NCBI RefSeq assembly: GCF_002742285.1
Contig: NZ_MDGM01000003.1
Span: forward strand, 186,001 to 250,000
Reading direction: 5' to 3'
Source of the DNA: Paramylibacter kogurei
GTDB taxonomy: Bacteria; Pseudomonadota; Alphaproteobacteria; Rhodobacterales; Rhodobacteraceae
Length of the DNA stretch: 64,000 nucleotides
The notes under the pieces were generated by a model. The model saw only the letters and a program-made list of their open reading frames with translations, was not told where the DNA came from and did no database searches. Below, in pieces: positions 8,709 through 51,626 of the stretch; the stretch's first letter is position 1, and every line of letters begins with the position of its first letter. Made by a program: the position numbers and the translations under genes.

Positions 8709-9776
8709 ATGAACCCGTATCAAAACCTAGATCAAAGGGCGTTTTGGGCGCCTGCAGTTGGCAAACGTGACATGCTCGAAATATCCGAGCTTTGGTCTCC
8801 AAAATTCCCGATTAAGCCAAGCAGCAAAGTTGCAACATTTGGCTCGTGCTTTGCGCAACACTTTAGCAAAGCGCTCACTAAAAATGGGTTTCGCTGGAAC
8901 AATACAGAACCGACACCTGACGGTTTGTCCGATGAAAATGCGCTATTGTATAATTATGGTGTTTTTACCTGTCGTACAGGCAATATTTATACGACTTCGC
9001 TTTTGCTACAGTGGACAAAATGGGCGCTGGGCAAGGAAAAACCACCAGCGGAATATTGGGAAAAAGACGGGCGCATTTATGACCCGTTCCGCCCACGTGT
9101 AGAGCCAAACGGTTTTGCCAGCGTTGAAGAGATGATTGCGTCGCGTGACATGTGCATCGAGGCATTCAAAGCCGCGATTGTTGATTCAAAAATATTTGTG
9201 TTCACATTGGGCTTAACCGAAAGCTGGATCAACAAATCAGGTGGATATGAATATCCAATGTGCCCAGGTACGGTTGCTGGCGATTTTGATGAAAAGGAAC
9301 ATATTTTTGTGAATCAGGATTACAAGTTGATCCACAAAAATTTGACGGATGCGCTGAAACTGATGAAAGAAGCAAATCGTGCGTTGCGGTTCTTGTTGAC
9401 AGTGTCACCTGTTCCGTTGACCGCAACCATGTCTGGAAATCATGTTCTGGTCGCAACGATGCAATCAAAATCAATACTACGCGCGGTTGCGGGTGACATT
9501 GCCACCAACCGTCGCAACGTTGATTATTTCCCGTCTTATGAAATTATCAGTAGCTTTCCGTTTCGCGGCGAATTTTTTGCGCAAAACCTTCGCAGCGTAG
9601 AACAACGTGGCGTTGATCATGTGATGGCAAATTTCTTTGCTGGGCTTGGTATTGATGTTGAAAAAATCAAAGCAGACAAAGCCGAACGTACTCAGCGCGC
9701 CGCAAAACGCAAAGAAGAAGCAAACGAATTGGTTTGCGAAGAAGAACTACTGGCCGCTTTCGGAGACAAAAAATGA
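8709..9776 (+). CDS. GSCFA family protein (SGNH-like hydrolase/transferase)
   Basis: The 355-residue protein contains the family signature literally: FGSCFAQHF, with GSCFA at residues 45-49. GSCFA proteins belong to the SGNH superfamily, whose block-I serine acts as nucleophile in esterases and acyl transferases. A late Asp303-His304 could complete the active site. The start at 8709 has an AGGAAG site. The stop overlaps the next start by four bases (ATGA), so it is translationally coupled to a second SGNH-like gene. Its place at the edge of a glycan locus suggests removal or transfer of acyl groups on a polysaccharide, which is inference. The C-terminal 40 residues are charged and probably helical. 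Confidence 0.85.
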   Translation: MNPYQNLDQRAFWAPAVGKRDMLEISELWSPKFPIKPSSKVATFGSCFAQHFSKALTKNGFRWNNTEPTPDGLSDENALLYNYGVFTCRTGNIYTTSLLLQWTKWALGKEKPPAEYWEKDGRIYDPFRPRVEPNGFASVEEMIASRDMCIEAFKAAIVDSKIFVFTLGLTESWINKSGGYEYPMCPGTVAGDFDEKEHIFVNQDYKLIHKNLTDALKLMKEANRALRFLLTVSPVPLTATMSGNHVLVATMQSKSILRAVAGDIATNRRNVDYFPSYEIISSFPFRGEFFAQNLRSVEQRGVDHVMANFFAGLGIDVEKIKADKAERTQRAAKRKEEANELVCEEELLAAFGDKK

Positions 9777-10546
9777 AGATCGCCGCAATTGGTAATAGCC
9801 ATATTGGTGCATTGAAATTGGGTTGGGATTCAATTTCAAAAAAACACAAAAACGTTGAAATTACATTTTTTGCTGCGGCACGCGAAGCGTTGCGGGACAT
9901 GGAATTGAAAGATGGAAAATTGGTTCCAACCAATGACGTGTTGGCGCGTCGATTGGAACAATTTTCAAACGGCGTATCGGAAATTGACCCTGAACAATAT
10001 GATGCATTTTTCATCGTTGGGGGCTGGAAAATTTTTCCGGTGGATAAGCGTACATCATCTGCCGTGCAATCAACCATCGCTTCGGATAGTTTTGAAAACA
10101 CTGTTGGCGGAAACTTGGCAAAGCTGTTGCGCTCCGCAACCGATAAACCAATTTATTTGGGCCACAATCCATTGCGCGCACAGACCAAAGCATTCGTCAA
10201 AGAATTTAAATCAATGTCGCTTAGTTATGCCCAACGTATTGAGGCCGTTCAAAAGATTGCGCAGGAACATTCGGTAACTGTGGTCGCACAGCCCGATAAA
10301 ACGCGAAGCTCTGAATTTTCGACAGTTGAAAAATATGCGAAATCTTCGGCGCGATTGCGTTCAACGCAACTCAATGATGCAATTGAGGAAAAGAAAAAGC
10401 GCAATGAAAAGCGAATTGCGATGGGTAAAAAACCACTCAAAATCGCGAGCCCAAAAAACCTAAGCCATGGTAAAAATGAGAAAAGCCATATGAACGGTGA
10501 TTATGGTGCATTATATATGTCCGCTTTGTTAAGCACGATGAAATAA
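9773..10546 (+). CDS. SGNH-like protein, tandem paralogue 1
   Basis: I recognise no named family. The 257-residue product begins MKIAAIGNSHIGALK, so Gly7-Asn8-Ser9-His10 sits right after a short beta strand, as the nucleophile block does in SGNH hydrolases (GDSH/GNSH). A late HMNGDYG (His239) could supply the catalytic histidine. DAFFIVGGWKIF in the middle resembles the corresponding part of the next gene. The start overlaps the GSCFA stop by four bases. An upstream in-frame ATG at 9734 lies inside the GSCFA gene and is less likely. Likely role is modification of a surface glycan or its precursor; this is inferred from the fold and neighbours. Confidence 0.72.
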   Translation: MKIAAIGNSHIGALKLGWDSISKKHKNVEITFFAAAREALRDMELKDGKLVPTNDVLARRLEQFSNGVSEIDPEQYDAFFIVGGWKIFPVDKRTSSAVQSTIASDSFENTVGGNLAKLLRSATDKPIYLGHNPLRAQTKAFVKEFKSMSLSYAQRIEAVQKIAQEHSVTVVAQPDKTRSSEFSTVEKYAKSSARLRSTQLNDAIEEKKKRNEKRIAMGKKPLKIASPKNLSHGKNEKSHMNGDYGALYMSALLSTMK

Positions 10547-10578
10547 CGATCCGTGATGGTGTTTAGCTGGAGAATATC

Positions 10579-11271
10579 GTGAAAAAAATTGCGTTGATCG
10601 GGAATAGCCACGCTGGCGCGCTCAAACAAGGTTGGGACGTTATCCGCGGAGAGTTTCCAGATGTGTCGGTTACGTTTTTCAGCTCTGCACGCAGAACACT
10701 TGGCCAGCTAGAGGTCAGCGGAGACAAGTTAATTGCAAATAATGATGAGCTAAAATCAAAACTTGCGTTGTCTTCGAACGGATTGGATAGCATTGATTCC
10801 AATGCGTATGATGCATTTTTTGTAATCGGTGGCCAAAAAATCTTTGCAGAAGATAATCGCCTGTCAGGTGCTGTTAAAAAACTGCTTATGGAAGATGGTT
10901 TTAAAACAAGCGTGGGTGCGGTTGTTGTGTTGCGGTTGCGTCAAATAACACAAAAACCGATTTGGTTTTCACCCAATCCGTTAAAAGCGCATTTTGAAGA
11001 TTACATTCAACACTGGCACAACAAAGCCATCGCATTTGACGATCGCATTAATCTGTTATCAGAAGTGTTGTCCGAAATAGACGTATCGGTATTTGCCCAA
11101 CCAAAAGAAACGCGTAATTCCGAATTTTCCACATCAGAAGATTTTGCGCGTCAGCAACCCTCGTCCACACAGGGTAAACGAAATGGTGGCGATCGGGCAC
11201 ATATGAACGAAGCTTACGGCGTGATTTATATGCGTGCATTGGCCCAACATTTGTCGGCGCAATTATCCTAG
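10579..11271 (+). CDS. SGNH-like protein, tandem paralogue 2
   Basis: The 230-residue product is a diverged duplicate of the preceding gene. Both begin with the same block (here IGNSHAGALKQGWD, Ser10-His11), share DAFFVIGGQKIF in the middle, the NSEFST stretch and a late HMNEAYGVIYM (His208). The GTG start has a TGGAGA site 9 bases upstream, and the gene follows its paralogue after 32 bases in the same operon. The family is unnamed to me; a serine-hydrolase-like fold is the best guess. It is convergent with a sulfotransferase, whose stop lies one base further on. Confidence 0.72.
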   Translation: MKKIALIGNSHAGALKQGWDVIRGEFPDVSVTFFSSARRTLGQLEVSGDKLIANNDELKSKLALSSNGLDSIDSNAYDAFFVIGGQKIFAEDNRLSGAVKKLLMEDGFKTSVGAVVVLRLRQITQKPIWFSPNPLKAHFEDYIQHWHNKAIAFDDRINLLSEVLSEIDVSVFAQPKETRNSEFSTSEDFARQQPSSTQGKRNGGDRAHMNEAYGVIYMRALAQHLSAQLS

Positions 11272-11272
11272 G

Positions 11273-12091
11273 CTACTTTAGAATTGATTTGATCATCTCA
11301 AAGTTTTCAGCACCAAATCCTTGATTAAGAGCAAAATCAAAAAAGTTTTGCTTTATTTGCGCTGAACGCTCTTTCTTGATCAACTTTTTCAATTTTCTTT
11401 CGGCAAGGTTTTTATGTGGTTCAAACCCAGATTTGCGGGCATGTTCGACAATGCGAAGATTGGAATCCGTTTGGTTTTTGGTCAACTCACGAAAATCGAT
11501 TTTCAAGACTTTGTCTTGGTTCGCGTTCAAAATGGACTGTAAATTTCGCATATGATTAATCACAATTGGCACCTCGCGCCAGATCGCAAAATTTAACAGA
11601 TCATCGTCTATTTCAGTTTGAGCATATGGATCGGATGCCCCATCACCTTGTGGCAAATGATACATGCCAGTCGTTTTTGCCATCGCGCGCGATATTGATT
11701 GATCCAAAATAGATGGGCGCACAACGGAAACCAAATTAACGGCGTCGTATGTGCGATAAGCCCAATCAATTACATTTTGCGCCGCTTGCACGGGGTGGGT
11801 TTCTTTTTCACCACCCAACATCCAATTTACGTGATCTGCGTATGAAACCATGAGTTTTAACCCATAGACGTCAGGCGAATTATCGTCCCCGCCCTTTTTC
11901 GCGATCAAATCGATGACATCCTGTTCGCTGACCGTTAAATCACCGCCTTGTTTGAATGCTTTCTTATCTTTGCGGATCAGTGGCATCAGATGCTCACCAG
12001 GTACACCCATTCCACCCATATCTTGGATGTCTGATCTTAAGAGCGTGCTTCCAGATCTTTGGGTTGCGATTAACAGGGTAAGTTTGGCCAT
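11273..12091 (-). CDS. Stf0-type sulfotransferase (copy A)
   Basis: The 272-residue product starts MAKLTLLIATQRSGSTLL; TQRSGST is the 5'-phosphosulfate loop of PAPS-dependent sulfotransferases. A second PAPS element is seen in VRPSILDQSISRAMAKTTG. The Stf0 group sulfates sugars such as trehalose. The closest relatives in the window are the genes at 20350 and 21219, so this is one of three paralogues. The ATG at 12091 matches the start of the paralogues; the reading frame extends 24 codons further upstream without homology. It is divergent from the two-domain glycosyltransferase at 12208. The acceptor is probably a glycan made by the neighbouring enzymes. Confidence 0.85.
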   Translation of the reverse strand: MAKLTLLIATQRSGSTLLRSDIQDMGGMGVPGEHLMPLIRKDKKAFKQGGDLTVSEQDVIDLIAKKGGDDNSPDVYGLKLMVSYADHVNWMLGGEKETHPVQAAQNVIDWAYRTYDAVNLVSVVRPSILDQSISRAMAKTTGMYHLPQGDGASDPYAQTEIDDDLLNFAIWREVPIVINHMRNLQSILNANQDKVLKIDFRELTKNQTDSNLRIVEHARKSGFEPHKNLAERKLKKLIKKERSAQIKQNFFDFALNQGFGAENFEMIKSILK

Positions 12092-12207
12092 TATAAATTC
12101 TCTGTATTGGGAGCTTTGCTTAAGAATTATGAGCAAATTATTTATATTGTTACTACTTTGCAATGGCGACGCTTACCAGTAAAACGGACTAAATTTGAGG
12201 GATTATT

Positions 12208-14166
12208 ATGACGAACCATCCGTTGTCTGGGATTGCAATAACGTTAACCCATGCTGGTGTTATGGATCAGTTGGTAAACGTCGTAAATTGGCACTTAAAT
12301 CAAGGGGTTGAACACGTTTTCATCTATCTTGATCGTCCCTTAAACGATTATTCAGAATTGTTTTCGTCTGATCCGCGGGTTTCCATTACGCATTGCACAA
12401 TGGATTATTGGAAAACACGGATCAAAGGGCGCGTCATAAGTGTCGAGGCAAAACAAATGTTTGCTTTGAAAACCAGCCTTGATTTGGCCAAAGAAATGGG
12501 CATTCGATATGTTGCATCGATTGATAGTGACGAGCTTGTCTATGCGCCCCAACCGCTTGCTGACTTGTTGGATCAACAGCACGAAAATTTTGGGTCATTC
12601 ATGTTAAGCGTGGTCGAGGCGCGCCATTCCCCAACCAGCGATGTGACGAACCCCTTTGGGGCAGATATCTTTTTGAAACGCAATATTGCCACCACTTGGT
12701 TTGGTGCACGAAAGGGCAAGTATTCATCGCTGCAACGCAAAGGCTTTTTTGGATACACGACTGGGAAAACGATTTACAAAATCCCTGCGAACTATGAATC
12801 AATTGGCGTGCATCGCCCCAGCCCCAAGAACGATGAATTAAAAGTGTCTAAACTTGAACCCTCGTTTGGTCATATTCTTCATTTTGATTGCGGAAATATT
12901 GAAACCTGGCGGGCAAAGTGGACGCAGCGCTTAATCGGTACAACGCTTGCGCGGGGAATGCGTGAAAAGCGTCGTCAACAATTGACGCTGTTTGCCGATG
13001 CATACACTGAAGGTTTGATCGCGCTGGAACGATTGTATCGCGCGTTGTTTGTCTTGCCTCAGAGCCAAATTCAGCAACTTGAAAGTAAGGGAAATTTGTT
13101 TTCGCCAAACTTGGCGGACACTGATTTTGATCAGCCGTATTCAGCAACAAAAGTCAAAGGGTTTAGCAGTTTTGATATTTGCCCTGAATATCCCGTCTTG
13201 CCCAGAAACCCGGTCAAATATCAATTTGCAATGGCTTGTGATCGCAACTTTGTAAAACCTGCGTATGCCTGTATTTTGTCGGTGATGGATAAAATGGACC
13301 CAAACCAACCGGTACGGGTATTTTTGCTGGTCGATAGTTTGCTCCCTGAAGATTTTGCACATTTGAATTCGCTCTCAAATGTGTTCAAAAACCTACAGCT
13401 ACATATTTGTGACGAAACACTTAAGCTGGATCGCGATGTCGGTATCAAAGACAAAAAACGCGCAACATTTTCGCGACTATATTTGCCAGAACACATTCAA
13501 TCCGGGCGGGTGATCTATATCGATAGTGATATGTTGGTCATGAAAGATATTTCGTATCTGTTCGATATGGATATGGAAAATAACATCGTCGCAGGCGTAA
13601 GCGATAGTGCGGCGTTACGGATCAAATATGCCCCCAATCGCATTTCAGCCGAGAAAACGGAACGATTGTCCGACATTGTTGGAGGGCAGGAAAATGTTCT
13701 GGATTACCTTAACGCCGGATTGTTGGTTTTGGACATGGATCATCCAGAATACCTAGAGCGCGCATTAAGGGGTTTGGATTTGTTGAAAACAGATGCACGC
13801 GCGTTGACCCAGCGTGATCAGGATGCGGTCAATATCGTGTTCAAAGACAAAAAATTGCGATTAACCAGCAAGGTTAATTATATGATTCAGTTTTTCGAAG
13901 CGCGATATCGCGATGCTCCTGAAATTTTAGAAATGAAAGAAGAACATAAAGACGCTGAAATTTTTCATTATTCTGGAAGCAAGAAACCCTGGCACACGCA
14001 TAAATCTCCGTCTAACAAATATATCCAATTGTATCGTGGGACGATTAAAGCCTTGGAACAGAAATGGAATGCGGATTGCGAATTTACGTATACGACAAAG
14101 CCTAAAATCAATAAGCCAAATTTGGCACATCGTGCCTATCGTAAGATTTTTCGTTTACCGAATTGA
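12208..14166 (+). CDS. Two-domain glycosyltransferase (GT92/GT2-like + GT8)
   Basis: The 652-residue protein joins two transferases. The first, about residues 1-300, resembles the GT92/Glyco_tranf_2_4 group (LTHAGVMDQLVNVVNWHLNQ, with metal-binding Asp106-Ser-Asp108). The second, about 330-630, is a GT8 domain like LPS galactosyl/glucosyltransferases, with YIDSDML (Asp439/Asp441), LNAGLLVLDMD and a late HYSGSKKPWH. Each half carries its own DxD, so both may be active and could add two consecutive sugars. GAGGGA lies just before the start. It is flanked by sulfotransferases on the opposite strand on both sides. Donor and acceptor cannot be read from sequence. Confidence 0.85.
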   Translation: MTNHPLSGIAITLTHAGVMDQLVNVVNWHLNQGVEHVFIYLDRPLNDYSELFSSDPRVSITHCTMDYWKTRIKGRVISVEAKQMFALKTSLDLAKEMGIRYVASIDSDELVYAPQPLADLLDQQHENFGSFMLSVVEARHSPTSDVTNPFGADIFLKRNIATTWFGARKGKYSSLQRKGFFGYTTGKTIYKIPANYESIGVHRPSPKNDELKVSKLEPSFGHILHFDCGNIETWRAKWTQRLIGTTLARGMREKRRQQLTLFADAYTEGLIALERLYRALFVLPQSQIQQLESKGNLFSPNLADTDFDQPYSATKVKGFSSFDICPEYPVLPRNPVKYQFAMACDRNFVKPAYACILSVMDKMDPNQPVRVFLLVDSLLPEDFAHLNSLSNVFKNLQLHICDETLKLDRDVGIKDKKRATFSRLYLPEHIQSGRVIYIDSDMLVMKDISYLFDMDMENNIVAGVSDSAALRIKYAPNRISAEKTERLSDIVGGQENVLDYLNAGLLVLDMDHPEYLERALRGLDLLKTDARALTQRDQDAVNIVFKDKKLRLTSKVNYMIQFFEARYRDAPEILEMKEEHKDAEIFHYSGSKKPWHTHKSPSNKYIQLYRGTIKALEQKWNADCEFTYTTKPKINKPNLAHRAYRKIFRLPN

Positions 14167-14168
14167 TA

Positions 14169-15398
14169 TCAACCGTTTAAACGGCGCCACACTGAAACCA
14201 TAACCTTTTTGAATTTACGAGTAATGTCGGCGACAAGATAACGTTTTGAACTGTTTGAAAGCCGTGCTTGCAAAATTTTACGTGCACGGCGCAAATCGTC
14301 ATTAACACCCATTAATCGCTGAGAAATATTTTTATCTGATCCGTTCGTGGTGATGATTTTGTCCAGATTTCTGAATGCAAGTGCGCGTGCACTTGGCCCG
14401 CAATGGCGTTCGATTGAATCTGCTAGTACATTCAATTTAACAACAAGATTTGCGTCTTGGGCATTTGGAACAGGCGTGTCGGTATAATGGAGAGTTTTCC
14501 ATTCTGAAAATTCGGATGCATCAGATTGCATCCAATTTTTGGCAATCCATTCATTTGATGCTTGGTATCTCATGCGTAATTTTTCGGCGGTCTTTTTTGG
14601 TAACAAATCAAAATTGTTGTCTTCGCCAGCGTCGTATAATTCGCGTACGATTTTGGTGCGCGTTTCTTTGTTGGTGATGACCAAGCTGTTTAAAATACGT
14701 AACGCAAAGCTATTTAACCCGCTTGTGCTTGGGTATTTTGCTGCGTTTTGATTGGACAAGAATGTTTGGGTTTCTGGTGTTAATCCAAGCTCTGCACATA
14801 ACCAATTCATTAATCCTAAATTGGCAACGATTTCATCATATGATCCAACCCGAAAATTTTTGGAACCAACGATTTCGCGCCACGGTTGGAACCGCGCCTT
14901 GTAATCGAAAAGTTGTTCGTCGAGGTCGTTGCAAAATTGTTCAATGCTTCTGATTTCGAAATCAATAAAACCATCCAGCAATTGTTTGTAATAACTTTCA
15001 ATCCAGCGATCTTGGCGGCGCAATACAAGTATCACGACAATTTTTTCAAAATATTGAAACCGCGCCAAATATTGTTTTGCGGTTACACGGCGGCGCCAAA
15101 TGGTAAAATTTTCAGACGAAATCAAAACGGATTTTGGCTTTAACCGTTCACAATCCTCGATTAATCGCTGGTGAATGCTTTTTTGTTCGCGGCGATGCGT
15201 AAACGCGCCGTGACCAGAATTGGCGCCCGAACGCGTTGTGAGTTGCCCATTTTGCACACCTGCATAATCTGGAAAAAACAAACCCTCGTTTTCCAAAAGA
15301 TATTCTTGATTTTCGCGCAGAATATTTTGCAGATAAGTTGTCCCTGTTTTGTGCATTCCGATGTGCAGATACAATGTTGGCTTGTTGGTTTTTTCCAT
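14169..15398 (-). CDS. PAPS-dependent sulfotransferase family protein
   Basis: The 409-residue protein begins with LYLHIGMHKTGTTYLQNIL, the 5'-phosphosulfate loop of the large sulfotransferase family found in rhodobacterial glycan clusters. IVVILVLRRQDRWIESYYKQ is the expected 3'-phosphate-binding region. The C-terminal 60 residues are basic and predicted helical. It is the last gene of a tight minus-strand unit (epimerase, GT2, this gene) with gaps of only 3-4 bases, so it probably modifies the sugar that the GT2 transfers. It is convergent with the GT92-GT8 gene, with 2 bases between the stops and a 12-bp palindrome CCGTTTAAACGG at 14173-14184 in its last codons. Confidence 0.83.
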   Translation of the reverse strand: MEKTNKPTLYLHIGMHKTGTTYLQNILRENQEYLLENEGLFFPDYAGVQNGQLTTRSGANSGHGAFTHRREQKSIHQRLIEDCERLKPKSVLISSENFTIWRRRVTAKQYLARFQYFEKIVVILVLRRQDRWIESYYKQLLDGFIDFEIRSIEQFCNDLDEQLFDYKARFQPWREIVGSKNFRVGSYDEIVANLGLMNWLCAELGLTPETQTFLSNQNAAKYPSTSGLNSFALRILNSLVITNKETRTKIVRELYDAGEDNNFDLLPKKTAEKLRMRYQASNEWIAKNWMQSDASEFSEWKTLHYTDTPVPNAQDANLVVKLNVLADSIERHCGPSARALAFRNLDKIITTNGSDKNISQRLMGVNDDLRRARKILQARLSNSSKRYLVADITRKFKKVMVSVWRRLNG

Positions 15399-15401
15399 CT
15401 G

Positions 15402-16238
15402 TTAATTCACCTTTTTGCGCAAAACGGTGCGATAGAAAAATGCAAGTATTGGGCGTGTCAGTGGAATCCGCAATGGCGCACGAATAAGAAATGATGCAAT
15501 CGCTGGAAAGACACCAAGCCCCATGAAACGCGGTGCATTGAGAACGAACAAACGGAATTCTGCACGAAAGTAATCTATCCCGCTTCTGCGATGCGCGATG
15601 CGATCTGCGTTTGCGTGCAATAGCACCTCGTCTACATTAAAAAGCGTATTTCCTTTGCGCAACATGGTGACCCAAAGTTTGAAATCTTCCATGCGCCCAC
15701 CGCGATACCCGCCAGCGGCAAGCACGGCGGACTTTGAATAACAACAGTTGTTGTGATTGATAGGGCTGCGAAAAAAGGATGAAAAATTTCGTTTGGTGAC
15801 ATGGCCACGCGGCAGGTTTCGAATTTGTTTGGCCCCATTTGATTGGAACTCTTGTATCGGGCCAGAACATACGGATGCATGGTTTTGATCAAATGCGGTT
15901 ACCAGCGTTTCAAACCGTTTTGGCAGATTTTGATCATCCGTATCGCACCGCATCACAAGATCAAATTTGCAATGTTGCAACCCTGTGTTCAAGCTTTCGC
16001 CAAGCGATGATTTTTCTGTTGCGATTTGGCGCAGAGGTAGCCCGTTTGACAATTTTGCAAGCAATTGATCACGCGCTGCACTGATTGGCCCGTCGATCAC
16101 CAAAACAATTTCAGTCGCGTGCAATGTTTGCGCGCGAAGTGAATCAAAAAATCGTTTTAGATTTTCATCCGTTTCACCCGCGAAAGTCACCGCAAGCACG
16201 CTAAACGGCGGAGCAATATTATGCTGTTGCTCCGCCAT
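15402..16238 (-). CDS. Family 2 glycosyltransferase
   Basis: The 278-residue product has a GT2 GT-A domain: FSVLAVTFAGETDENLKRFF, then IVLVIDGP and MRCDTDDQNLPKRF with the metal-binding Asp-Thr-Asp. It should transfer a sugar from a nucleotide donor to a growing glycan at the cytoplasmic membrane face. It sits between an epimerase (4 bases upstream) and a sulfotransferase (3 bases downstream), in what must be one transcript. The donor sugar is unknown, although an adjacent epimerase often makes it. Confidence 0.85.
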   Translation of the reverse strand: MAEQQHNIAPPFSVLAVTFAGETDENLKRFFDSLRAQTLHATEIVLVIDGPISAARDQLLAKLSNGLPLRQIATEKSSLGESLNTGLQHCKFDLVMRCDTDDQNLPKRFETLVTAFDQNHASVCSGPIQEFQSNGAKQIRNLPRGHVTKRNFSSFFRSPINHNNCCYSKSAVLAAGGYRGGRMEDFKLWVTMLRKGNTLFNVDEVLLHANADRIAHRRSGIDYFRAEFRLFVLNAPRFMGLGVFPAIASFLIRAPLRIPLTRPILAFFYRTVLRKKVN

Positions 16239-16242
16239 TGCG

Positions 16243-17202: not shown

Positions 17203-17415
17203 TTATACACCAATATTTTTGCGCATACCGCGCAGTTACGTTTAGCGCCTTTTCGCACAGCCCCGAAAAGGTTTCAACATTCAAGTGTTGTTGGGTTTTT
17301 TTGAAAAAAACACGCATAAGATGTTGTGTAAATCTTTAAATTCGATGGGTTACCTACTATATCGGCGACAACGATGAATCGTGATGTATTTTTAATTTTA
17401 GGGGCGATATCAGTA

Positions 17416-17598: not shown

Positions 17599-17630
17599 GC
17601 TGCTCTGAAAACGAAGATATAGGTTGAGAC

Positions 17631-20318: not shown

Positions 20319-20349
20319 CGCAACCGCTTGTGGGTTTGGTAGGGACATT

Positions 20350-22064: not shown

Positions 22065-22084
22065 GTTTGAACAATTGTCGATGC

Positions 22085-43914: not shown

Positions 43915-44856
43915 ATGACAACCAAAGGCAAATTCAACGTGAGCACACCTGACCAGATCGAAGTAAGCTTTTTTCTCGGCGCACATCGGGTGGCGTTGCA
44001 TTATCTTAATCGTTGTATGTTGCAAAATGCTGAACTTTTGGCGGGCGAAAACATCGTTGTGCCAACGGCCAAGGCCGGTGCATCCGCAGTGTCGCAAATG
44101 ATTGTAAACACCAACAAAGGCCAACCATTATCAGAGGCACGCGAAGAGTTTATTCAAAAGCTTGCCGGTGATGTCGAAAACCCAAAACGATTGGTTGTGA
44201 TGACCAATAGCATTGCAGGGTCCATTCGCGCCCCAATTGTTAATGCACAGGCATATGCGCCGTTAACATCACGATGCATTCGCCTGCGCGAGATTTTCGA
44301 AAACGATTCACTGCGGATATTTTTTGGAATTCGCAATCCTGCCAAATTTGTCATTTCCGCCTATAGCGAAATCGCAAGGTTTGAAAAATCTATGCCGTTT
44401 CAAAAATACATCGAGCGCATGGATATTGATCGATTTCGCTGGTCATCAACATTTGAAAAATTGTTTACTGCCGTGCCTGATGTCAATTTTACCGTGTGGA
44501 AATACGAAGAGCTTCACGATATTTCACGCCGGTTGATTGGTGAAATGACCGGGTTTTCAGAGCCCGAAAAGCTTAGCATCGAAACACGCCCGATAAACAC
44601 TGGCTTGTCACTGGAAGGTGGCGAATTGTTGCACGAATATCTGGCAAATTCACCCGATATCGCAGACGATGATATGAACAAGATCATGCATGAATATACC
44701 GAAAACTACCCAAGCAGTGAAATGCCACGCCACCACGATGTGATGACGCCAGAACGCATTCAACAATTAACCTATGGGTATGACGATGATTGGTATTATA
44801 TTCAGCGCATGGAAGGTTTAAACACAATTACAACGCCAGATAATCTGGCTGACTAG
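43915..44856 (+). CDS. Sulfotransferase-like protein with degenerate PAPS loop
   Basis: I recognise this 313-residue product only as sulfotransferase-like. SFFLGAHRVALHYLNRCML takes the place of the usual HIGMHKTGTT loop but lacks the Lys/Arg-x-Gly-Thr residues. LRIFFGIRNPAKFVISAYSE matches the 3'-phosphate-binding part. It may have a changed donor site or be inactive. The ATG at 43915 has no ribosome binding site; an in-frame GTG at 43939, ten bases after AAAGG, would give MSTPDQIEVSFF and is a fair alternative. It heads the deoxysugar operon, nine bases before the next gene. Confidence 0.65.
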   Translation: MTTKGKFNVSTPDQIEVSFFLGAHRVALHYLNRCMLQNAELLAGENIVVPTAKAGASAVSQMIVNTNKGQPLSEAREEFIQKLAGDVENPKRLVVMTNSIAGSIRAPIVNAQAYAPLTSRCIRLREIFENDSLRIFFGIRNPAKFVISAYSEIARFEKSMPFQKYIERMDIDRFRWSSTFEKLFTAVPDVNFTVWKYEELHDISRRLIGEMTGFSEPEKLSIETRPINTGLSLEGGELLHEYLANSPDIADDDMNKIMHEYTENYPSSEMPRHHDVMTPERIQQLTYGYDDDWYYIQRMEGLNTITTPDNLAD

Positions 44857-44865
44857 GGGATATTC

Positions 44866-45795
44866 GTGCGCATTTTATTAACTGGCGGAAGCGGCATGTT
44901 GGGGCAAAGTTTGCGTGCCATTGCTGTTCGCGAATTTCCTCAACACGAAATCATTGCGCCAACCCGTTCTCAATTGATGTTAACCAATCGCGATGCTGTT
45001 GCAGAGTTTATGCAAAATGGCGAATTCGATGCGGTTATTCACGGCGCGGCGCGCGTTGGTGGTATTCAGGCGAATATCGCCCATCCGGTGGCGTTTTTGG
45101 CAGAAAATCTGCAAATTAATGATGCTGTGATCATGGGCGCCTACAAAGCAAAAATAGAACGTCTGTTTTTTCTGGGCTCGTCTTGCATGTATCCCAAGGA
45201 TTACAAACAACCGTTGAAAGAAGAGTATATTCTTCAAGCGCCGCTTGAACCCACAAACGAGGGGTATGCCCTGTCAAAAATCACGGGTGCGCGTTTATGT
45301 GAATATATTTCCACGCAAAGTGGTTATGCCTACAAAACACTGATCCCGTGTAATTTATTTGGCGAGAATGACCATTTTGGGTCAGATGCCAGCCATTTGA
45401 TTGCCGCAATTGTAACCAAGATATCTGAAGCGGTGAATGATAATAAGGATACGGTTGAAATATGGGGATCTGGAAACGCGCGGCGCGAATTTTTACTGGT
45501 TGATGATTTGGCGCGTTTTATCTTGCAAAATATCGACAAGGGCCATGAATTGCCCGCATATTTGAATACTGGATACGGTCAAGATCATTCAGTTTTCGAA
45601 TATTATCAAATGATTGCAGAGCTTTTTTCATTTAAAGGTACATTTACCTTTGATACCAGCAAACCAGAAGGCATGATGGCCAAACAAATGGATAGTAGCA
45701 TCGCCGCAAAACACGGATGGGGACCCGTCACACCTATTAACCAAGCTTTAGAACGCATTGTTCAAAAATTTCAAATGCAGACACAGGACCAATAA
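44866..45795 (+). CDS. GDP-L-fucose/GDP-L-colitose synthase (Fcl/ColC-like)
   Basis: The 309-residue short-chain dehydrogenase has a Rossmann motif TGGSGMLGQS, the GSSCMYP motif with the catalytic Ser and Cys, YALSK and GENDHF, all as in Fcl. Fcl epimerises C3 and C5 and reduces C4 of GDP-4-keto-6-deoxymannose. The related ColC does the 5-epimerisation and 4-reduction of the 3-deoxy intermediate. The next gene is ColD-like, so colitose is the better guess. The start is GTG with AGGGGA upstream, and the stop is directly adjacent to the next ATG. Confidence 0.87.
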   Translation: MRILLTGGSGMLGQSLRAIAVREFPQHEIIAPTRSQLMLTNRDAVAEFMQNGEFDAVIHGAARVGGIQANIAHPVAFLAENLQINDAVIMGAYKAKIERLFFLGSSCMYPKDYKQPLKEEYILQAPLEPTNEGYALSKITGARLCEYISTQSGYAYKTLIPCNLFGENDHFGSDASHLIAAIVTKISEAVNDNKDTVEIWGSGNARREFLLVDDLARFILQNIDKGHELPAYLNTGYGQDHSVFEYYQMIAELFSFKGTFTFDTSKPEGMMAKQMDSSIAAKHGWGPVTPINQALERIVQKFQMQTQDQ

Positions 45796-46968
45796 ATGTT
45801 TTACCCGCTCGCGAATACCACATGGGATGACGCCGAACATTCCGCGCTACAAGATGTGATTGCATCTGATCGGTTTACCATGGGCGCGAAAGTGCGCGAA
45901 TTCGAAGAAAAGTTCGCGGACAAATTTGGTAAAAAATACGCGATAATGACATCAAGCGGTTCAACCGCCAACCTGCTAGCGATTTCATCGGCGTTTCATC
46001 ATCCAGATTTAGGCTTGCGCCCAGGGGATGAGGTGTTGGTGCCTGCGGTCAGCTGGTCAACAACCTACTTCCCAATTACGCAATCGAGCTTGATGCTGCG
46101 TTTTGTCGATATTGATCCAGAAACGCTGAATATTGATCTGAACAAAATTGAACAGGCGATCACCCCACGCACCAAGGCTGTGTTTGCGGTGAACCTGCTG
46201 GGGAACCCAGTAGAGGCGGATAAATTACGCGCATTATGTAAATCACATAACTTGTTGTTAATGGAAGATAATTGTGAATCAATGGGTGCGAAATATGATG
46301 GCGAACAGGCGGGCGCATTTGGATTTTGCGGCACGTTTTCGACGTTCTTTTCACATCACATTTGCACCATGGAAGGTGGCGTGGTTATCACCGATGATCG
46401 CAAAATGTATGATACGATGTTGTCTATGCGTGCGCATGGTTGGGTGCGGGATTTGCCATCTGATACACATTTACCGCTCGACCCTGATCCATTCGTGCGT
46501 CAGTTTCGATTTGTGCTGCCTGGATACAATCTGCGACCCATCGAAATGGAGGGTGCGCTGGGCATTCCGCAATTGGCGAAATTGGATGGTTTTGTGAGCG
46601 AGCGGCGCAAAAACGGTAAACAATTTCAGGACATGTTCAACGACCTTGATTTTCTTGATATCCAACAAGAGCGCGGCGAGAGTAGCTGGTTTGGCTTTGC
46701 CATGATCCTAAAAGGAAAAATGAAAGGGAAGCGTTCATTGTTGGTTGATGCTTTCAAAGCTGCCGAAATTGAATGCCGCCCGATTGTGACCGGTAATTTT
46801 TTAAATAACCCCGTGATTGAAAAGCTGCCCCATTCGGTCGGGAGCACCATCACCGCGGCACAGGATGTGGATGTTGATGGTCTGTTCGTGGGTAATCACC
46901 ATCACCCCATTCCCGAACAATTGGCGCGCCTGCGCCAAGTTGTGCAAGATGTCGCGGATAAACAGTAG
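45796..46968 (+). CDS. colD: GDP-4-keto-6-deoxymannose 3-dehydratase (ColD-like)
   Basis: The 390-residue PLP enzyme has the DegT/DnrJ fold (TSSGSTANLLAISSAF near residue 50 and MEDNCESMGAKY). The position of the usual PLP-binding lysine reads FFSHHICTMEGG, with His187-His188, which is the hallmark of 3-dehydratases such as ColD (His188) and RfbH. Aminotransferases such as PerA have a lysine here, so an amino sugar is unlikely. With gmd and manC immediately downstream and an Fcl/ColC-like gene before it, the product should be GDP-4-keto-3,6-dideoxymannose on the route to GDP-L-colitose. Its ATG abuts the previous stop. Confidence 0.85.
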   Translation: MFYPLANTTWDDAEHSALQDVIASDRFTMGAKVREFEEKFADKFGKKYAIMTSSGSTANLLAISSAFHHPDLGLRPGDEVLVPAVSWSTTYFPITQSSLMLRFVDIDPETLNIDLNKIEQAITPRTKAVFAVNLLGNPVEADKLRALCKSHNLLLMEDNCESMGAKYDGEQAGAFGFCGTFSTFFSHHICTMEGGVVITDDRKMYDTMLSMRAHGWVRDLPSDTHLPLDPDPFVRQFRFVLPGYNLRPIEMEGALGIPQLAKLDGFVSERRKNGKQFQDMFNDLDFLDIQQERGESSWFGFAMILKGKMKGKRSLLVDAFKAAEIECRPIVTGNFLNNPVIEKLPHSVGSTITAAQDVDVDGLFVGNHHHPIPEQLARLRQVVQDVADKQ

Positions 46969-46976
46969 GATATTTC

Positions 46977-48401
46977 ATGGCACATAAACTCTATCCTGTA
47001 ATTTTATGCGGCGGTTCTGGCACACGCTTGTGGCCGATGTCGCGCAAATCTTATCCAAAACAATTCGTGTCAATGTTTGGCAAGGAAAGCTTGCTGCAAT
47101 CAACGGTGCGTCGTTTTGCGGGCGCTGGGTTTGAACCCCCCTTGATGTTATCAAACAACGCGTTTCGTTTTTTGGTCGGGGATCAATTGGCGCAGCTGGA
47201 TGCGGGCCCTTCCAAAATTGTTATTGAACCATCAATGCGCAACACCGCACCCGCAATCGCGGCAGCGGCAGTGATTCTGGCAAAACAAGACCCAGATGCA
47301 TTGATCCTTGTCGCACCATCAGATCACGTGATCGAAGATGAAGCCGCATTTCAAACAGCGGTGAACGTTGCCGCCGATGCCGCCGCCAAAGGTGCGTTTG
47401 TGACCTTTGGCATACGTCCAACGCGACCCGAAACAGGGTTTGGATATATAGAGTTGGACGCGGCACCTGATGGAAATGTGCCAACTGCATTACCATTTGA
47501 AAAATTCGTTGAAAAACCAGATGAAAAAGCGGCGGAAAAAATGGTCGCCTCTGGTCGCTATCTTTGGAATTCAGGCATGTTTATGTTTTCTGCTAATGCG
47601 GTGTTGGCCGCATTCGAAAAACATGCCCCCGCAGTGTTAAGTGCCGTGAAAAAAGGTGTTGAAAACGGCGCAGAGGATCTCGATTTTTTCAGAATGTCAT
47701 CGGATTATGACAAGGCTGATAACATTAGTTTCGATTATGCCATCATGGAAAATGTTTCGGGTGTAACCGTTCCGCTGGATTCAGGTTGGAACGATTTAGG
47801 AAGCTGGAAGACCGTATGGCAAGAGGCTGACAAAGACGACGACGGTGTTGCCTTGGGCGATACGGCCACAGCGATTGATTGTGAAAATACATTGCTGCAA
47901 TCACGCGGTGATCAGGTTCAAATTGTGGGCATTGGTTTGAAAAACATCGTGGCCATCGCCATGCGAGATGCAGTGTTGGTGGCGGACATGGATCAGGTGC
48001 AATCGGTGAAACAAGCCGTGGAACATTTGAAATCCATTAATGCGCCACAGGCCGAAGAATTCCCAAAATGCCACCGCCCGTGGGGATGGTATGAAACGCT
48101 CGCGCTTGGTGATCGGTTTCAGGTGAAAAACATCATGGTAAAACCAGGTGCACAGCTAAGCTTGCAATCACATGTGCATCGTTCGGAACATTGGGTTGTT
48201 GTCGCAGGAACGGCGAATGTTACGGTGGATGATCGCGTGGAATTGCTGACAGAAAATCAATCGGTATACATCCCCCTTGGTGCGGTGCATCGGCTTGAAA
48301 ACCCTGGCAAAGTTGATTTGCACCTGATCGAAGTGCAAACCGGAAGCTATCTTGGCGAAGATGATATCATCCGTTACGAAGACATTTATGCGCGGGTCTG
48401 A
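46977..48401 (+). CDS. manC: Mannose-1-phosphate guanylyltransferase/mannose-6-phosphate isomerase
   Basis: The 474-residue type II enzyme makes GDP-mannose. The N-terminal transferase shows GGSGTRLWPMSRKSYPKQF, FVEKPDEKAAEKM and NSGMFMFSA. The C-terminal cupin-like isomerase domain (QSHVHRSEHWVVVAGTANV) starts near residue 390. It supplies substrate to gmd, 18 bases downstream, and follows the ColD-like gene by eight bases. Confidence 0.95.
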   Translation: MAHKLYPVILCGGSGTRLWPMSRKSYPKQFVSMFGKESLLQSTVRRFAGAGFEPPLMLSNNAFRFLVGDQLAQLDAGPSKIVIEPSMRNTAPAIAAAAVILAKQDPDALILVAPSDHVIEDEAAFQTAVNVAADAAAKGAFVTFGIRPTRPETGFGYIELDAAPDGNVPTALPFEKFVEKPDEKAAEKMVASGRYLWNSGMFMFSANAVLAAFEKHAPAVLSAVKKGVENGAEDLDFFRMSSDYDKADNISFDYAIMENVSGVTVPLDSGWNDLGSWKTVWQEADKDDDGVALGDTATAIDCENTLLQSRGDQVQIVGIGLKNIVAIAMRDAVLVADMDQVQSVKQAVEHLKSINAPQAEEFPKCHRPWGWYETLALGDRFQVKNIMVKPGAQLSLQSHVHRSEHWVVVAGTANVTVDDRVELLTENQSVYIPLGAVHRLENPGKVDLHLIEVQTGSYLGEDDIIRYEDIYARV

Positions 48402-48419
48402 CCGCACAAAGGAGAAACA

Positions 48420-49490
48420 ATGACTAAAACCGCCCTAATCACAGGTGTAACAGGCCAAGATGGCGCGTATCTGTCTGAACTTTTGCTGGAAAAAGGTTAT
48501 GAAGTTCATGGCGTTAAACGCCGTTCTTCGTCTTTTAATACGGGTCGTATCGACCACTTGCAAATCGACAGCCACAAGAATTCAAACTTTAACCTGCACT
48601 ATTCCGATATGGTTGATAGCGCGTCTTTGATTTCATTGGTTCAGGATATTCAACCAGATGAAATTTATAACCTTGCCGCGCAAAGCCACGTAAAGGTTTC
48701 GTTTGAAATGCCGGAATATACCGCGAATGCGGATGGTATTGGCACGCTACGTTTGTTAGAGGCAATTCGTTTGCTAAAGCTGACGGAAAAAACCAAATTT
48801 TATCAAGCGTCTACGTCAGAGCTTTATGGTAAAGTGCAAGAAATCCCGCAAAGCGAAACAACGCCGTTTTATCCACGATCACCTTATGCAGCGGCGAAAC
48901 TATATGCCTATTGGATCACAGTGAATTACCGCGAAGGGTATAATATGTTTGCTACTAACGGGATTTTGTTTAACCACGAAAGCCCCATTCGCGGGGAGAC
49001 GTTTGTAACGCGTAAAATCACCCGTGCGGTTGCTGCGATCGAATTGGGTTTGCAAGAAAAATTGATGTTGGGCAATTTATCAGCGCAACGCGATTGGGGC
49101 CATGCACGTGACTATGTCGAGGGTATGTGGCGCATTTTGCAACATGACACGCCTGATGATTTCGTTTTGGCAACGGGCGAAATGCATTCCGTGCGCGAAT
49201 TTTGTGAAATCGCATTTTCCCATGTTGGCATTGAAATTCGCTGGGAAGGCGAAGGTGAAAATGAAAAAGGCTTTGATGCGAAAACCAACAAATGCTTGAT
49301 CGAAGTTGACCCACGTTATTTCCGCCCTACAGAAGTGGAACAATTATTGGGTGATCCAACAAAAGCCCGCGAAAAACTTGGATGGAGCCACACAACGCCA
49401 TTTCAAAAACTGGTCGAGGAAATGGTTACCGAAGATCGCCAATTGTTGAAAACGGAACGTCTGGCGCGGCGTACATATGGTGCGACCTAG
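48420..49490 (+). CDS. gmd: GDP-mannose 4,6-dehydratase
   Basis: Gmd converts GDP-mannose to GDP-4-keto-6-deoxymannose, the shared intermediate for fucose, colitose, rhamnose and perosamine. The 356-residue enzyme has [32 protein letters not shown] (catalytic Thr/Ser and Glu) and [15 protein letters not shown] with Tyr-x-x-x-Lys. AAAGGAGAAAC lies before the start. It ends the operon, one base from the convergent stop of the glycosyltransferase-TPR gene. Confidence 0.96.
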
Positions 49491-51626
49491 TTAAGCGGAT
49501 TTACGATTAAAATCGGCGGTTAGCTTGTCATGAATTTTTCGAAAGGCCGGGCGCAACGTTCCCACATCTTGTAAAACGGTCAGGATTGCCAAGAGCTCAT
49601 TTTTTGAACCACAGCGTTTTAAAATTGTGGCATAGGCATTCAATACTCGCGCGGAACCTTGGCTGTTTTCCAATGCGATCAATCCCAGTTTTCGGGCTTG
49701 TTCGCGGTGCTTTTTCTTACGCGATAATGCAAGTGCGGCCTTCAACACCACTTCTGGATAGTTTTGCGCTTGCGCAACAATAGAACGATAGCTTTCAATT
49801 CCTGCATCCACTTGTTTGTTTTGAATTTGTGCTTCGGCCAGATGGGCCGTGTATAAAATTTGTTCAGGCTCAATTTTCGCCGCAAGTGTTAATGCGGTTA
49901 TTCCGTTGCCGATTTGACCATCTGCGATCAGCGCATCACCAAATCGTTTTTGATAAAGCGCATTGTTAGGGACAGCATCAGTCGCTGCGCGATGTTGTTT
50001 TAATGCGCGTTTCACATCACCCATTTCAAGTGCATATAATCCTGTCATGCTGCTATGCGCATGTTCGGGTGAACAGCGTTCGCACACGGCTGTGATCCGT
50101 GAATACAGCATTTCAATCCGATCTTTGTGATGAAATAAACGATGGCGACGTTTTCCCAAAAACAAAGACCAATCGCGGCTGATCATGTCGATAGATACGA
50201 ATGGTATTTCAATTGGCTTTTTCCCGATAAATCCACCAACCCGATTTCCACCCGCAGCCGGTGAACCAGGCAGCGCAAACCGCGTAAGCATTTTATCAAA
50301 AGGGAAAAAATTGTCTGGTGTCAGAAGCTTGTTCAAAACCATTTGCAGCATGGTTTTTTCCGCACCTTGAATATTTGGAAATGACCAAAGCGAGAGGCAG
50401 AGCGATTGAATCGCACCCTCTTTATCATTTTGCGCAAGATGCGCACGCACGCACATCAAATTCAACGTGGCCATCGCAATATCAAATTGCAATTCTTGTT
50501 TTTGTGCTAACGCACGAATATCCAATGCCGCCTGTGCATCATCATGCCCAAGGTATAATTCGCACAAAATAACATAGATATATGCCCGGTTCAGACCCAT
50601 ATCCAAATATTTTCGCGTGATCGCAGCACCTTGTTTCGACTTGTTATTCTTTAACCAATATTCGGTTGCAAATGGTAACGTTTGCCCAACATCGGCAAGC
50701 CCAAGGAAATGTTCCGGACCGCTATCTAGGTGCGAGACAAGCAATGCCAATGCTTGATCGTGATCTTCTGGTGACAGGGTTTCCTGAACATCGGTGACGG
50801 TGGCATTGCCAAACAATGCTGCAGTTTCTGAAAAACCACTGCCCGGCGGGCCGATAATTTCGTGGCATCGCGACATGGCATATAAGCTTAGGAAATCATA
50901 TTGCGCATCGTTAAGCGCAGCGGTGTCAATCATATCATCAAGCGCAAGCACATTTGATGACATGGTTTTTAGGCGTTCAACCTCTCGTGGTTCATCCGAA
51001 AATACCAATATTTTACCGTTGGAATTTTCACTGTGGCGTTGCAGATGGATATGATAAAATTCTCGGGGGGTGTATTTTTTCGGCCATACCTTTTTAGCGG
51101 CATTGCTTTCTGGATCGATAATATCGCCACGGCGGATGTGATATGCGATGGGTGGTGCATCGTCTAAGGCTGTGTTGATCTTGTCGATCATTGTTGCGAC
51201 GACTGGATTGAATTCCAATCGATCAAATGCGGCCGCAACGCTTGCGCGAACCACGGCTTCGTCTTCGTGAGGAAATGTTGCGACACTTGCAAATGCGTGT
51301 GACAGCAAAAGATTTTTTCCCTTGGCAATTTCGGATGCCAACCTGTCCGCATCCCATCCAGGGTTACGATATGCGACCTCGAACATGTCAGGTTGAAGAG
51401 ATTCAAAGCTGTCTTTGGTTACGAAATATTTGTCGATAAAATTTTGCGAAAAAATTTGGCTTGGGTCTCTGATTTCATCGCTCATTGTATCGGTGATTAA
51501 CCAATACATTTTGAAATCAATGTCGTAATCGGTGGCCACACGCAATGCGTTTAGCATCGCGATTAAACGCGACCCCATGCGATCAACGCGAAAGGCATAT
51601 GCAGCAGATTTTGTTTTCGACATCAT
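49491..51626 (-). CDS. Fucosyltransferase-like protein (NodZ/FUT8 type) with TPR region
   Basis: The 711-residue product has an N-terminal part with the GDP-fucose-binding HIRRGD (residues 163-168), then KILVFSDEP and CHEIIGPPGSGFSETAALFG, as in alpha-1,6-fucosyltransferases of the NodZ/FUT8 fold. From about 330 onward it has helical repeats that look like TPRs (for example ALEMGDVKRALKQHRAATDAV and PEQILYTAHLAEAQI). It could transfer the sugar made by the facing gmd operon (fucose or colitose). The start is uncertain among ATGs at 51626, 51623 and 51659. It is convergent with gmd. Confidence 0.75.
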   Translation of the reverse strand: MMSKTKSAAYAFRVDRMGSRLIAMLNALRVATDYDIDFKMYWLITDTMSDEIRDPSQIFSQNFIDKYFVTKDSFESLQPDMFEVAYRNPGWDADRLASEIAKGKNLLLSHAFASVATFPHEDEAVVRASVAAAFDRLEFNPVVATMIDKINTALDDAPPIAYHIRRGDIIDPESNAAKKVWPKKYTPREFYHIHLQRHSENSNGKILVFSDEPREVERLKTMSSNVLALDDMIDTAALNDAQYDFLSLYAMSRCHEIIGPPGSGFSETAALFGNATVTDVQETLSPEDHDQALALLVSHLDSGPEHFLGLADVGQTLPFATEYWLKNNKSKQGAAITRKYLDMGLNRAYIYVILCELYLGHDDAQAALDIRALAQKQELQFDIAMATLNLMCVRAHLAQNDKEGAIQSLCLSLWSFPNIQGAEKTMLQMVLNKLLTPDNFFPFDKMLTRFALPGSPAAGGNRVGGFIGKKPIEIPFVSIDMISRDWSLFLGKRRHRLFHHKDRIEMLYSRITAVCERCSPEHAHSSMTGLYALEMGDVKRALKQHRAATDAVPNNALYQKRFGDALIADGQIGNGITALTLAAKIEPEQILYTAHLAEAQIQNKQVDAGIESYRSIVAQAQNYPEVVLKAALALSRKKKHREQARKLGLIALENSQGSARVLNAYATILKRCGSKNELLAILTVLQDVGTLRPAFRKIHDKLTADFNRKSA

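Follow-up and report, generated by a model that had tools for sequence, protein, structure and literature searches.

The window, a 64,000-nucleotide stretch of the Paramylibacter kogurei genome, carries three blocks of genes with housekeeping genes standing between them (Table 1). An earlier note had listed kdsB, galU, manC, gmd, an SqdB-like gene, an ABC-2 permease and cysQ here, all of which are present, with the ORFs at the positions it gave, and cysQ does head the plus-strand gene run that ends with ST5 at 38480. Its count of at least eight glycosyltransferases holds by domains, nine of which lie on seven ORFs in the window, and six sulfotransferase-like genes all fall inside 34 kb. Among the five sulfotransferases it had called clear, ST1, ST3 and ST4 (the last starting at 21189, where the note had 21219) pass the Pfam Stf0 model; ST2 and ST5 pass no Pfam cut-off, though PAPS motifs are present in both.

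Table 1. Features of the three blocks, with their positions in the window
Block	Feature	Position	Strand	Evidence
1	GSCFA-family protein	8709-9776	+	Pfam GSCFA E=6e-44; 99% identity with Amylibacter ulvae
1	Two SGNH-like proteins (9773-10546, 10579-11271)	9773-11271	+	weak SGNH matches, below cut-off
1	ST1, Stf0-type sulfotransferase	11273-12163	-	Pfam Stf0 E=2e-11; PAPS loop TQRSGSTLL
1	Two-domain glycosyltransferase (GT2/GT92-like + GT8)	12208-14166	+	domain match
1	ST2, probable non-Stf0 sulfotransferase	14169-15398	-	GMHKTGTTYL; RRQDRWIES; Sulfotransfer_3 E=0.002, below cut-off
1	GT2 glycosyltransferase	15402-16238	-	domain match
1	NDP-sugar epimerase/dehydratase	16243-17202	-	profile match
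1	GT4-GT2 fused glycosyltransferase	17631-20318	+	domain match
1	ST3, Stf0-type, tandem with ST4	20350-21192	+	Pfam Stf0 E=2e-13; motif
1	ST4, Stf0-type, tandem with ST3	21189-22040	+	Pfam Stf0 E=7e-16; motif
1	UDP-sulfoquinovose synthase-like (SqdB/SQD1)	22085-23230	-	289 bits to Arabidopsis SQD1
2	KpsM, capsule ABC-2 permease	29771-30601	-	PDB 8tsh E=0.0018; NCBIfam KpsM 38.7 bits, below cut-off
2	cysQ, PAP phosphatase	30670-31515	+	TIGR01331 263.6 bits, over cut-off
2	kdsB, CMP-Kdo synthetase	31517-32299	+	NCBIfam 309 bits, over cut-off
2	GT2B glycosyltransferase	32296-33519	+	domain match, synteny
2	galU	33550-34482	+	TIGR01099 340 bits, over cut-off
2	GT4B glycosyltransferase	34523-35746	+	domain match, synteny
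2	GT2_4 glycosyltransferase	35770-36780	+	domain match; 53-65% identity between genera
2	GT14 (Core-2/I-branching) fused to DUF5927	36780-38480	+	Pfam; model matches XylT1 and C2GnT
2	ST5, predicted PAPS-dependent sulfotransferase + C-terminal domain	38480-39931	+	motifs, fold
3	ST6, degenerate sulfotransferase-like protein	43915-44856	+	no Pfam match; 5'-PAPS loop lost
3	ColC/Fcl-like epimerase-reductase	44866-45795	+	Fcl model 287 bits, below 500 cut-off
3	ColD, GDP-4-keto-6-deoxymannose 3-dehydratase	45796-46968	+	ColD structures 441 bits, E=3.5e-131
3	manC	46977-48401	+	TIGR01479 586 bits, over cut-off
3	gmd	48420-49490	+	TIGR01472 585 bits, over cut-off
3	726-aa protein	49491-51671	-	HIRRGD-like stretch; weak C-terminal TPR-like repeats

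Contents of blocks 1 and 3

ST1, ST3 and ST4 are the sole three Stf0 proteins of the 2.98-Mb genome searched, scoring 44-59 bits against PF09037 (curated cut-off 22), and ST1 shares 37-41% identity with ST3 and ST4. With the Stf0 trehalose 2-sulfotransferase (1tex) they have the family match and the PAPS loop in common, but they fall far below the corresponding equivalog cut-off (NF047724; 27-44 bits versus 400), and by that measure do not count as trehalose sulfotransferases. The SqdB-like protein matches Arabidopsis SQD1 over its full length, with TMG and YHxxK conserved, and stays below the NF041015 equivalog cut-off (348 versus 575 bits). Its product groups with plasmid homologues adjoining an APS-reductase-type CysH. 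Plain sulfolipid synthesis seems a less likely role for this gene, because the product falls apart from sqdBDC-type genes and neither sqdD nor sqdC lies beside it. Judging from its sequence, the enzyme probably makes UDP-sulfoquinovose.

In block 3, ST6 has lost its P-loop, as the description of it as degenerate implied: it reads GAHRVALHY where ST2, which it weakly resembles, has GMHKTGTTY, and the loop is lost in A. ulvae too. A match to SIR2-like proteins was dismissed (E=0.08). The 45796 product matches ColD best, with an active-site His replacing the PLP lysine (SHHICTMEGG), and manC and gmd are predicted to form the GDP-mannose branch feeding GDP-colitose. Block 3 is thus assigned a GDP-colitose pathway by sequence, an assignment that replaced GDP-fucose after the ColD match. 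It resembles the known pathway (ColD 2gms/3gr9) in manC, gmd, ColD with its active-site His and an Fcl-like partner, but additionally holds ST6, the degenerate sulfotransferase, and the 726-aa protein, which is uncharacterised. The latter gave no family match and no PDB match; that it might be a fucosyl- or colitosyltransferase is speculative.

Block 2 and its conservation across the family

Block 2 (29771-39931) comprises kpsM, cysQ, kdsB, four glycosyltransferases, galU and ST5, flanked by dnaJ/dnaK/alkB on one side and ptsN-hpf-lptBAC-rnd on the other. The same flanks occur in six more distant congeners, and the placement is also kept in 18 other Rhodobacteraceae genera, with small gene losses in some; since block 2 is syntenic across genera, a chance arrangement is excluded. 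Amylibacter ulvae has the whole three-block arrangement, block 2 synteny included, and is the sole genome found to carry blocks 1 and 3 among those compared, with neither at the same place in the remaining congeners. Three units with separate histories therefore make up what the earlier note had taken for a single three-block locus. Comparison with relatives identifies block 2 as ancestral, and blocks 1 and 3 as lineage-specific units common to the P. kogurei window and A. ulvae. Block 2 also has natural variants: ST5 is missing from one genome (G024), kpsM is reduced to a remnant in another (G027), and some relatives have an empty site.

ST5 has only a weak Sulfotransfer_1 match (E=0.006). 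In the alignment of 23 orthologues, however, R16-T17-G18, N20, G36-E37, R109-N110-P111 and S117 are invariant, so that both the 5' (R16-T17-G18, N20) and the 3' (R109..S117) PAPS-binding motifs are conserved. The best Foldseek PDB matches of the ST5 model are all sulfotransferases, Stf0 among them, with E about 3e-4 and low TM-scores. By motifs and modelled fold, ST5 is assigned as a PAPS-dependent sulfotransferase. Its homologue lies directly 3' of the DUF5927-GT14 gene in 55/55 genomes, and 80/80 named ST5 loci contain DUF5927 as well as ST5. The earlier note had called dense sulfation of a bacterial surface polysaccharide uncommon, but ST5 occurs family-wide, in 36 genera of the sample, and its relatives in GTDB number hundreds.

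DUF5927 scores 36-40 against the ST5-N profile (60 shuffles reached at most 21) and only 16-17 against Stf0; it may resemble a sulfotransferase domain that lacks the PAPS loop. Foldseek matches of the GT14-DUF5927 model are dominated by the GT14 half, not DUF5927. One possible role for DUF5927 is that of an inactive sulfotransferase-like domain linking GT14 to ST5. Considered as a possible second sulfotransferase, the C-terminal half of ST5 gives a weak profile signal (score 24-31, without a shuffle control).

The searches for kpsT and kpsSCDE that the earlier note had suggested found kpsT-kpsE-kdsA-pmm at C7 and kpsS-kpsD-kpsC at C12, and the export set KpsM, KpsT, KpsE and KpsD is present in the genome, split between the window, C7 and C12. 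The Capsule_synth matches at C12 are 430-aa and 720-aa proteins (KpsS/KpsC Kdo transferases; KpsS model 206 bits, below the 600 cut-off). KpsM, KpsT and KpsE all match chains of the solved KpsMT-KpsE complex 8tsh, although KpsM and KpsE are below the NCBIfam equivalog cut-offs; for the window KpsM, the permease of this complex is the single PDB match, weak by sequence. No kpsM lies in the C7 kpsTE operon, nor was one seen around kpsT-kpsE in 8 other genomes. Among family genomes at least 90% complete, the block 2 cluster co-occurs with KpsS/C (49/1/2/7, p=8e-7) and with KpsE (50/0/1/8, p=4e-9) in a test that ignores phylogeny, the exceptions being G023 and G049 and, for KpsE, G012. G027, alone among these genomes in having the cluster and not KpsS/C, retains kpsM only as a 44-residue remnant. 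From this co-occurrence we infer that the window KpsM pairs with KpsTE.

In four capsule-less genomes (G002, G021, G026, G030) the site is empty, without kpsM and GT2B..ST5, and cysQ-kdsB remain; both genes stay in place in relatives without the capsule glycan and export genes. As the window cysQ encodes the only CysQ of the whole genome and is kept where kpsM and GT2B..ST5 are absent, it is best classed by sequence comparison as ordinary housekeeping. A capsule-dedicated PAP recycler, which the earlier note had seen as built in, is rejected on the paralogue count and the empty sites. No PAPS-synthesis gene was matched inside the window, as had been stated, and the genome check found a fused ATP sulfurylase-APS kinase, over cut-off, at C13. 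APS kinase also occurs in relatives without the cluster; therefore PAPS has further uses, and APS kinase was dropped as a discriminating marker.

A predicted sulfated capsule and competing readings

The products of block 2 very probably make and export a sugar coat that carries sulfate, because capsule-gene co-occurrence, PAPS-sulfotransferase motifs and PAPS synthesis point the same way; for this block the sulfated surface-glycan function proposed earlier is well supported. More specifically, block 2 is likely the polymer-building part of a dispersed, ABC-dependent, Kdo-linked capsule that is sulfated in the cytosol by ST5. Rhodobacteraceae would keep this capsule system in three dispersed places (C12, C7 and the region of this window). 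KpsS/KpsC would prime the lipid with Kdo, the four block 2 glycosyltransferases would extend it in the cytosol, and ST5 would sulfate the polymer with PAPS from the fused ATP sulfurylase-APS kinase. CysQ would remove the resulting PAP, and the sulfated polymer would leave through KpsM(window)-KpsT-KpsE-KpsD.

It is unlikely that ST5 and the block 1 sulfotransferases act instead on small molecules or lipids, leaving the glycan itself unsulfated. Mycobacterial Stf0 sulfates trehalose; no characterised family is nearer to ST1, ST3 and ST4 than Stf0, which also appears among the fold matches of ST5. Yet ST5 always follows a glycosyltransferase gene, and the capsule module that holds them is missing from genomes without the Kps genes. 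Sulfotransferases also have a precedent in the sulfated-CPS clusters of Cobetia and Vibrio (PMC11766843, PMC11641403). Somewhat less probable still is that block 2 builds and sulfates an LPS core or O-antigen, with the ABC-2 permease as Wzm. This would suit kdsB within the operon and the adjoining lptBAC, but both persist in genomes without kpsM, GT2B..ST5, KpsS/C and KpsE, and the permease has the KpsMT-KpsE permease as its sole PDB match. A single three-block locus that serves a densely sulfated glycan and recycles its own PAP would suit the clustering of six sulfotransferase-like genes and the whole arrangement in A. ulvae, but is the least probable, given that blocks 1 and 3 are absent here from the other congeners compared, that cysQ is housekeeping, and that block 3 is a predicted GDP-colitose unit whose one sulfotransferase is degenerate.

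Alongside the dispersed capsule proposed for block 2, blocks 1 and 3 would make other decorated glycans, the former with several sulfotransferases and probably UDP-sulfoquinovose, the latter with GDP-colitose. A second kpsT-kpsE/kpsM set lies 2.6 kb upstream of the window, and perhaps exports these glycans.

Relation to known capsules and significance

Sulfated Kdo capsules are already known from Cobetia marina KMM 1449 (PMC11766843) and Vibrio sp. KMM 8419 (PMC11641403). Their clusters share with the present system ABC-transporter capsule export, sulfotransferases and PAPS-synthesis genes, and the Cobetia cluster has a kpsETMD operon with kpsSC and also contains cysQ. By contrast, the export, priming and PAPS genes lie in one cluster there and are spread over four contigs here, and no DUF5927-GT14/ST5 pair, fixed site beside dnaK or family-wide spread was found in the text consulted. 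KpsM, KpsT, KpsE, Poly_export (KpsD), KpsS, KpsC, kdsA and kdsB recall the group 2/3 ABC-dependent capsules (8tsh; PMC11041684), but here kpsM sits away from kpsTE, beside the glycosyltransferases, with a sulfotransferase as a constant member. The capsule that serves as RcGTA receptor in Rhodobacter capsulatus, of the same order, is encoded by rcc01081-01086 and wza/wzb/wzc (PMC10218006); this gene cluster differs, and block 2 is ruled out as that receptor locus.

Searches on the locus, on DUF5927 and on roseobacter sulfotransferases found nothing on point, and a family-wide fixed locus with the DUF5927/ST5 pair appears undescribed in the literature searched. A fuller picture can be offered tentatively: an undescribed family-wide sulfated capsule would depend, for lengthening and sulfating its polymer, on a fixed pair, a xylosyltransferase/Core-2-like GT14 joined to DUF5927 (dead, docking) and active ST5, and in this lineage a second glycan would add a sulfonate (sulfoquinovose) to several sulfate esters.

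DUF5927 gains a genomic context, and natural variants are available in the empty-site relatives, G024 and G027. Rhodobacteraceae are abundant marine bacteria. If a single conserved capsule bearing sulfate is common to many of them, it would supply seawater with bacterial sulfated polysaccharide, form a candidate phage-receptor layer and offer a defined site for studying how bacteria sulfate their glycans.

Three blocks of different history

All genes named by the earlier note were found in the window, which covers C3:186001-250000 of the 2.98 Mb source genome (G000), in three blocks separated by the housekeeping genes maeB, dnaJ, dnaK and alkB and by ptsN, hpf, lptBAC and rnd. As that note had it, five sulfotransferases look functional from their sequences and one is degenerate: the PAPS loop is missing from ST6, with the same loss in Amylibacter ulvae KCTC 32465, the closest relative in the sample (85% match for ST5). 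ST1, ST3 and ST4 score above the Stf0 cut-off, as no other protein of the genome does; ST2 and ST5 fall under the Pfam cut-offs, yet contain PAPS motifs. In the genus sample, Stf0 genes number three in the source genome, three in A. ulvae, one each in two others and none elsewhere.

The blocks had been read as one locus, but their histories differ. All three are common to A. ulvae, whereas block 2 (kpsM, cysQ, kdsB, GT2B, galU, GT4B, GT2_4, GT14-DUF5927, ST5) is the sole common block in four more distant congeners compared over ~60 kb; the proposed synteny comparison supports a conserved position for block 2, with blocks 1 and 3 shared, among the congeners compared, with A. ulvae alone. Block 2 occupies the same site in another two congeners and in 18 more genera, mostly between dnaJ/dnaK/alkB and ptsN-hpf-lptBAC-rnd, with recognisable kdsB, GT2B, galU or GT4B homologues absent from the site in some genomes. 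Of 121 searched genomes, 57 carry ST5, all from one family, and a GTDB search yields at least 567 genome stretches that contain it. ST5 of the Rhodobacteraceae type (40-41% identity) also occurs on contigs labelled Cytophagaceae bacterium SAT51 (L107) and Nocardioides marinus DP1N28-1 (L129), probably through misbinning or contamination.

Coordinates of the features discussed
Feature	Location
Block 1	window 8709-23230
Block 2	window 29771-39931
Block 3	window 43915-51671
ColD-like gene	window 45796-46968
726-aa protein	window 49491-51671
Accessory kpsT-kpsE/kpsM set	C3:180535-183414 (L042 14535-17414)
EpsH locus	G000:C2 (L082 4471-13520)
Plasmid SqdB-like/reductase pairs	L188 10001-13764; L189 10001-11907
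Block 2 without ST5	G024:C19 (L186 4209-6500)
kpsM remnant	G027:C71 (L187 8236-8367)
Reduced block 2	G023:C88 (L184 8937-13324)

Predicted sugars of blocks 1 and 3

The SqdB-like protein of block 1 (22085) is similar to Arabidopsis SQD1 along its length, with the TMG and YHxxK residues conserved, but scores under the NCBIfam equivalog cut-off. In an eight-sequence tree, it clusters with two plasmid homologues adjoining a phosphoadenylyl-sulfate reductase gene, apart from homologues followed, as in sulfolipid operons, by a glycosyltransferase and mostly also a reductase. On these two Rhodobacterales plasmids, one of which has a sulfotransferase between the two genes, both reductases contain the paired-cysteine motifs of APS reductases, and the gene pair is possibly a sulfoquinovose-glycan module. 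Because a sulfite source adjoins an SQD1-like enzyme among glycosyltransferases, sulfoquinovose in surface glycans is suggested, for the window by inference only.

In block 3, an aminotransferase-family gene matches ColD (441 bits) with the diagnostic active-site histidine; since it is joined by manC, gmd and an Fcl-like partner, the predicted pathway is that of GDP-colitose rather than GDP-fucose. The 726-aa protein contains an HIRRGD-like stretch and matches TPR models weakly at its C-terminal end; its N-terminal part has no family or PDB match, and the protein may be a deoxysugar transferase of the block.

Block 2 and the capsule genes of the genome

The proposed search for kpsT and kpsSCDE succeeded outside the window: KpsS, a Poly_export protein and KpsC lie side by side on C12, and kpsT-kpsE-kdsA-pmm, with kpsM absent, on C7. 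The kpsT-kpsE stretch also lacks kpsM in eight other genomes, where kdsA or pmm was not seen in all. For the window permease, C7 KpsT and C7 KpsE, the best or only PDB match is in each case the solved KpsMT-KpsE complex. An accessory kpsT-kpsE/kpsM set lies next to hrcA-grpE, 2.6 kb upstream of the window; its type of KpsE occurs in about half of the relatives, and the C7 type is the sole KpsE in many block-2 genomes. On C2, an exosortase (EpsH) lies with Poly_export, a TPR protein and another GSCFA protein in a further envelope-polymer locus.

When the 59 family genomes of at least 90% completeness are compared, the presence of block 2 agrees with that of KpsS/C in 56 (49 both, 7 neither; p=8e-7) and with that of KpsE in 58 (p=4e-9), statistics that ignore shared ancestry. 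G002, G021, G026 and G030, which have neither KpsS/C nor KpsE, show the order alkB-cysQ-kdsB-ptsN: kpsM and GT2B to ST5 are gone, and cysQ and kdsB are retained. G027, the sole near-complete genome with block 2 but without KpsS/C, has the glycosyltransferases, ST5 and a 44-residue C-terminal kpsM remnant, an apparent decay of the capsule system. Therefore, kpsM and GT2B to ST5 behave as a capsule module, and cysQ and kdsB behave like resident genes that serve other purposes. In G023, which keeps Capsule_synth hits, kpsM, cysQ and GT4B are followed by ptsN, a candidate intermediate or alternative polymer set.

PAPS synthesis, sought genome-wide at the earlier note's suggestion, can proceed through a fused ATP sulfurylase-APS kinase on C13 (570 aa, 1023 bits, over cut-off). 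Within the genome, only the window cysQ product (~263.5 bits) exceeds the CysQ cut-off, the next among the matches listed scoring 121. Both genes are also present in relatives without the block-2 cluster, so that PAP recycling built into the locus is not supported: if PAP is to be removed, this CysQ must serve ST5, without being a capsule-specific addition.

The GT14-DUF5927/ST5 pair and known capsules

GT14-DUF5927, found in one copy each in 56 genomes, lies directly 5' of ST5 in 55 of 55 genomes with both (gap 2-233 nt). The exception, G024, has ptsN in place of ST5 and is a natural sulfotransferase-minus variant. In the N-terminal half of ST5, R16-T17-G18, N20, G36-E37, R109-N110-P111 and S117 are invariant across 23 orthologues. 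Matches of the ST5 model (pLDDT 82) are the curacin, tyrosylprotein, Alicyclobacillus and Stf0 sulfotransferases, although the E-values are modest and the TM-scores low. The GT14 half resembles human xylosyltransferase 1 and Core-2 GlcNAc transferase. The DUF5927 profile scores 36-40 against the ST5 N-terminal half (60 column shuffles, at most 21), and CHGELFNP in ST5 corresponds to CHGHLFHR in DUF5927, from which the PAPS loop is absent. A reading of DUF5927 as a diverged, inactive sulfotransferase-like domain is only suggestive, because it has no similarity to Stf0.

Beyond the observed gene presence, synteny and shared absence, we infer the substrates, the order in which the steps proceed and the sulfation: KpsS/KpsC would prime with Kdo, GT2B, GT4B, GT2_4 and GT14 would extend the chain in the cytosol, ST5 would sulfate it with PAPS, CysQ would clear PAP, and KpsM-KpsT-KpsE-KpsD would export the product.

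Such a glycan had been thought possibly undescribed, but the kind is already known, since two reports describe gene clusters for sulfated ABC-exported capsules in Cobetia marina KMM 1449 (kpsETMD, kpsSC, cysN/C, cysD, cysQ and sulfotransferases; PMC11766843) and Vibrio sp. KMM 8419 (PMC11641403). None of the papers searched mentions DUF5927, and the literature searched, covering few subscription papers, contains no roseobacter capsule sulfotransferases. Compared with those clusters, as far as these sources describe them, three features are new: the genes are dispersed, DUF5927-GT14 and ST5 form a fixed pair, and the arrangement has spread through the family at a conserved position.
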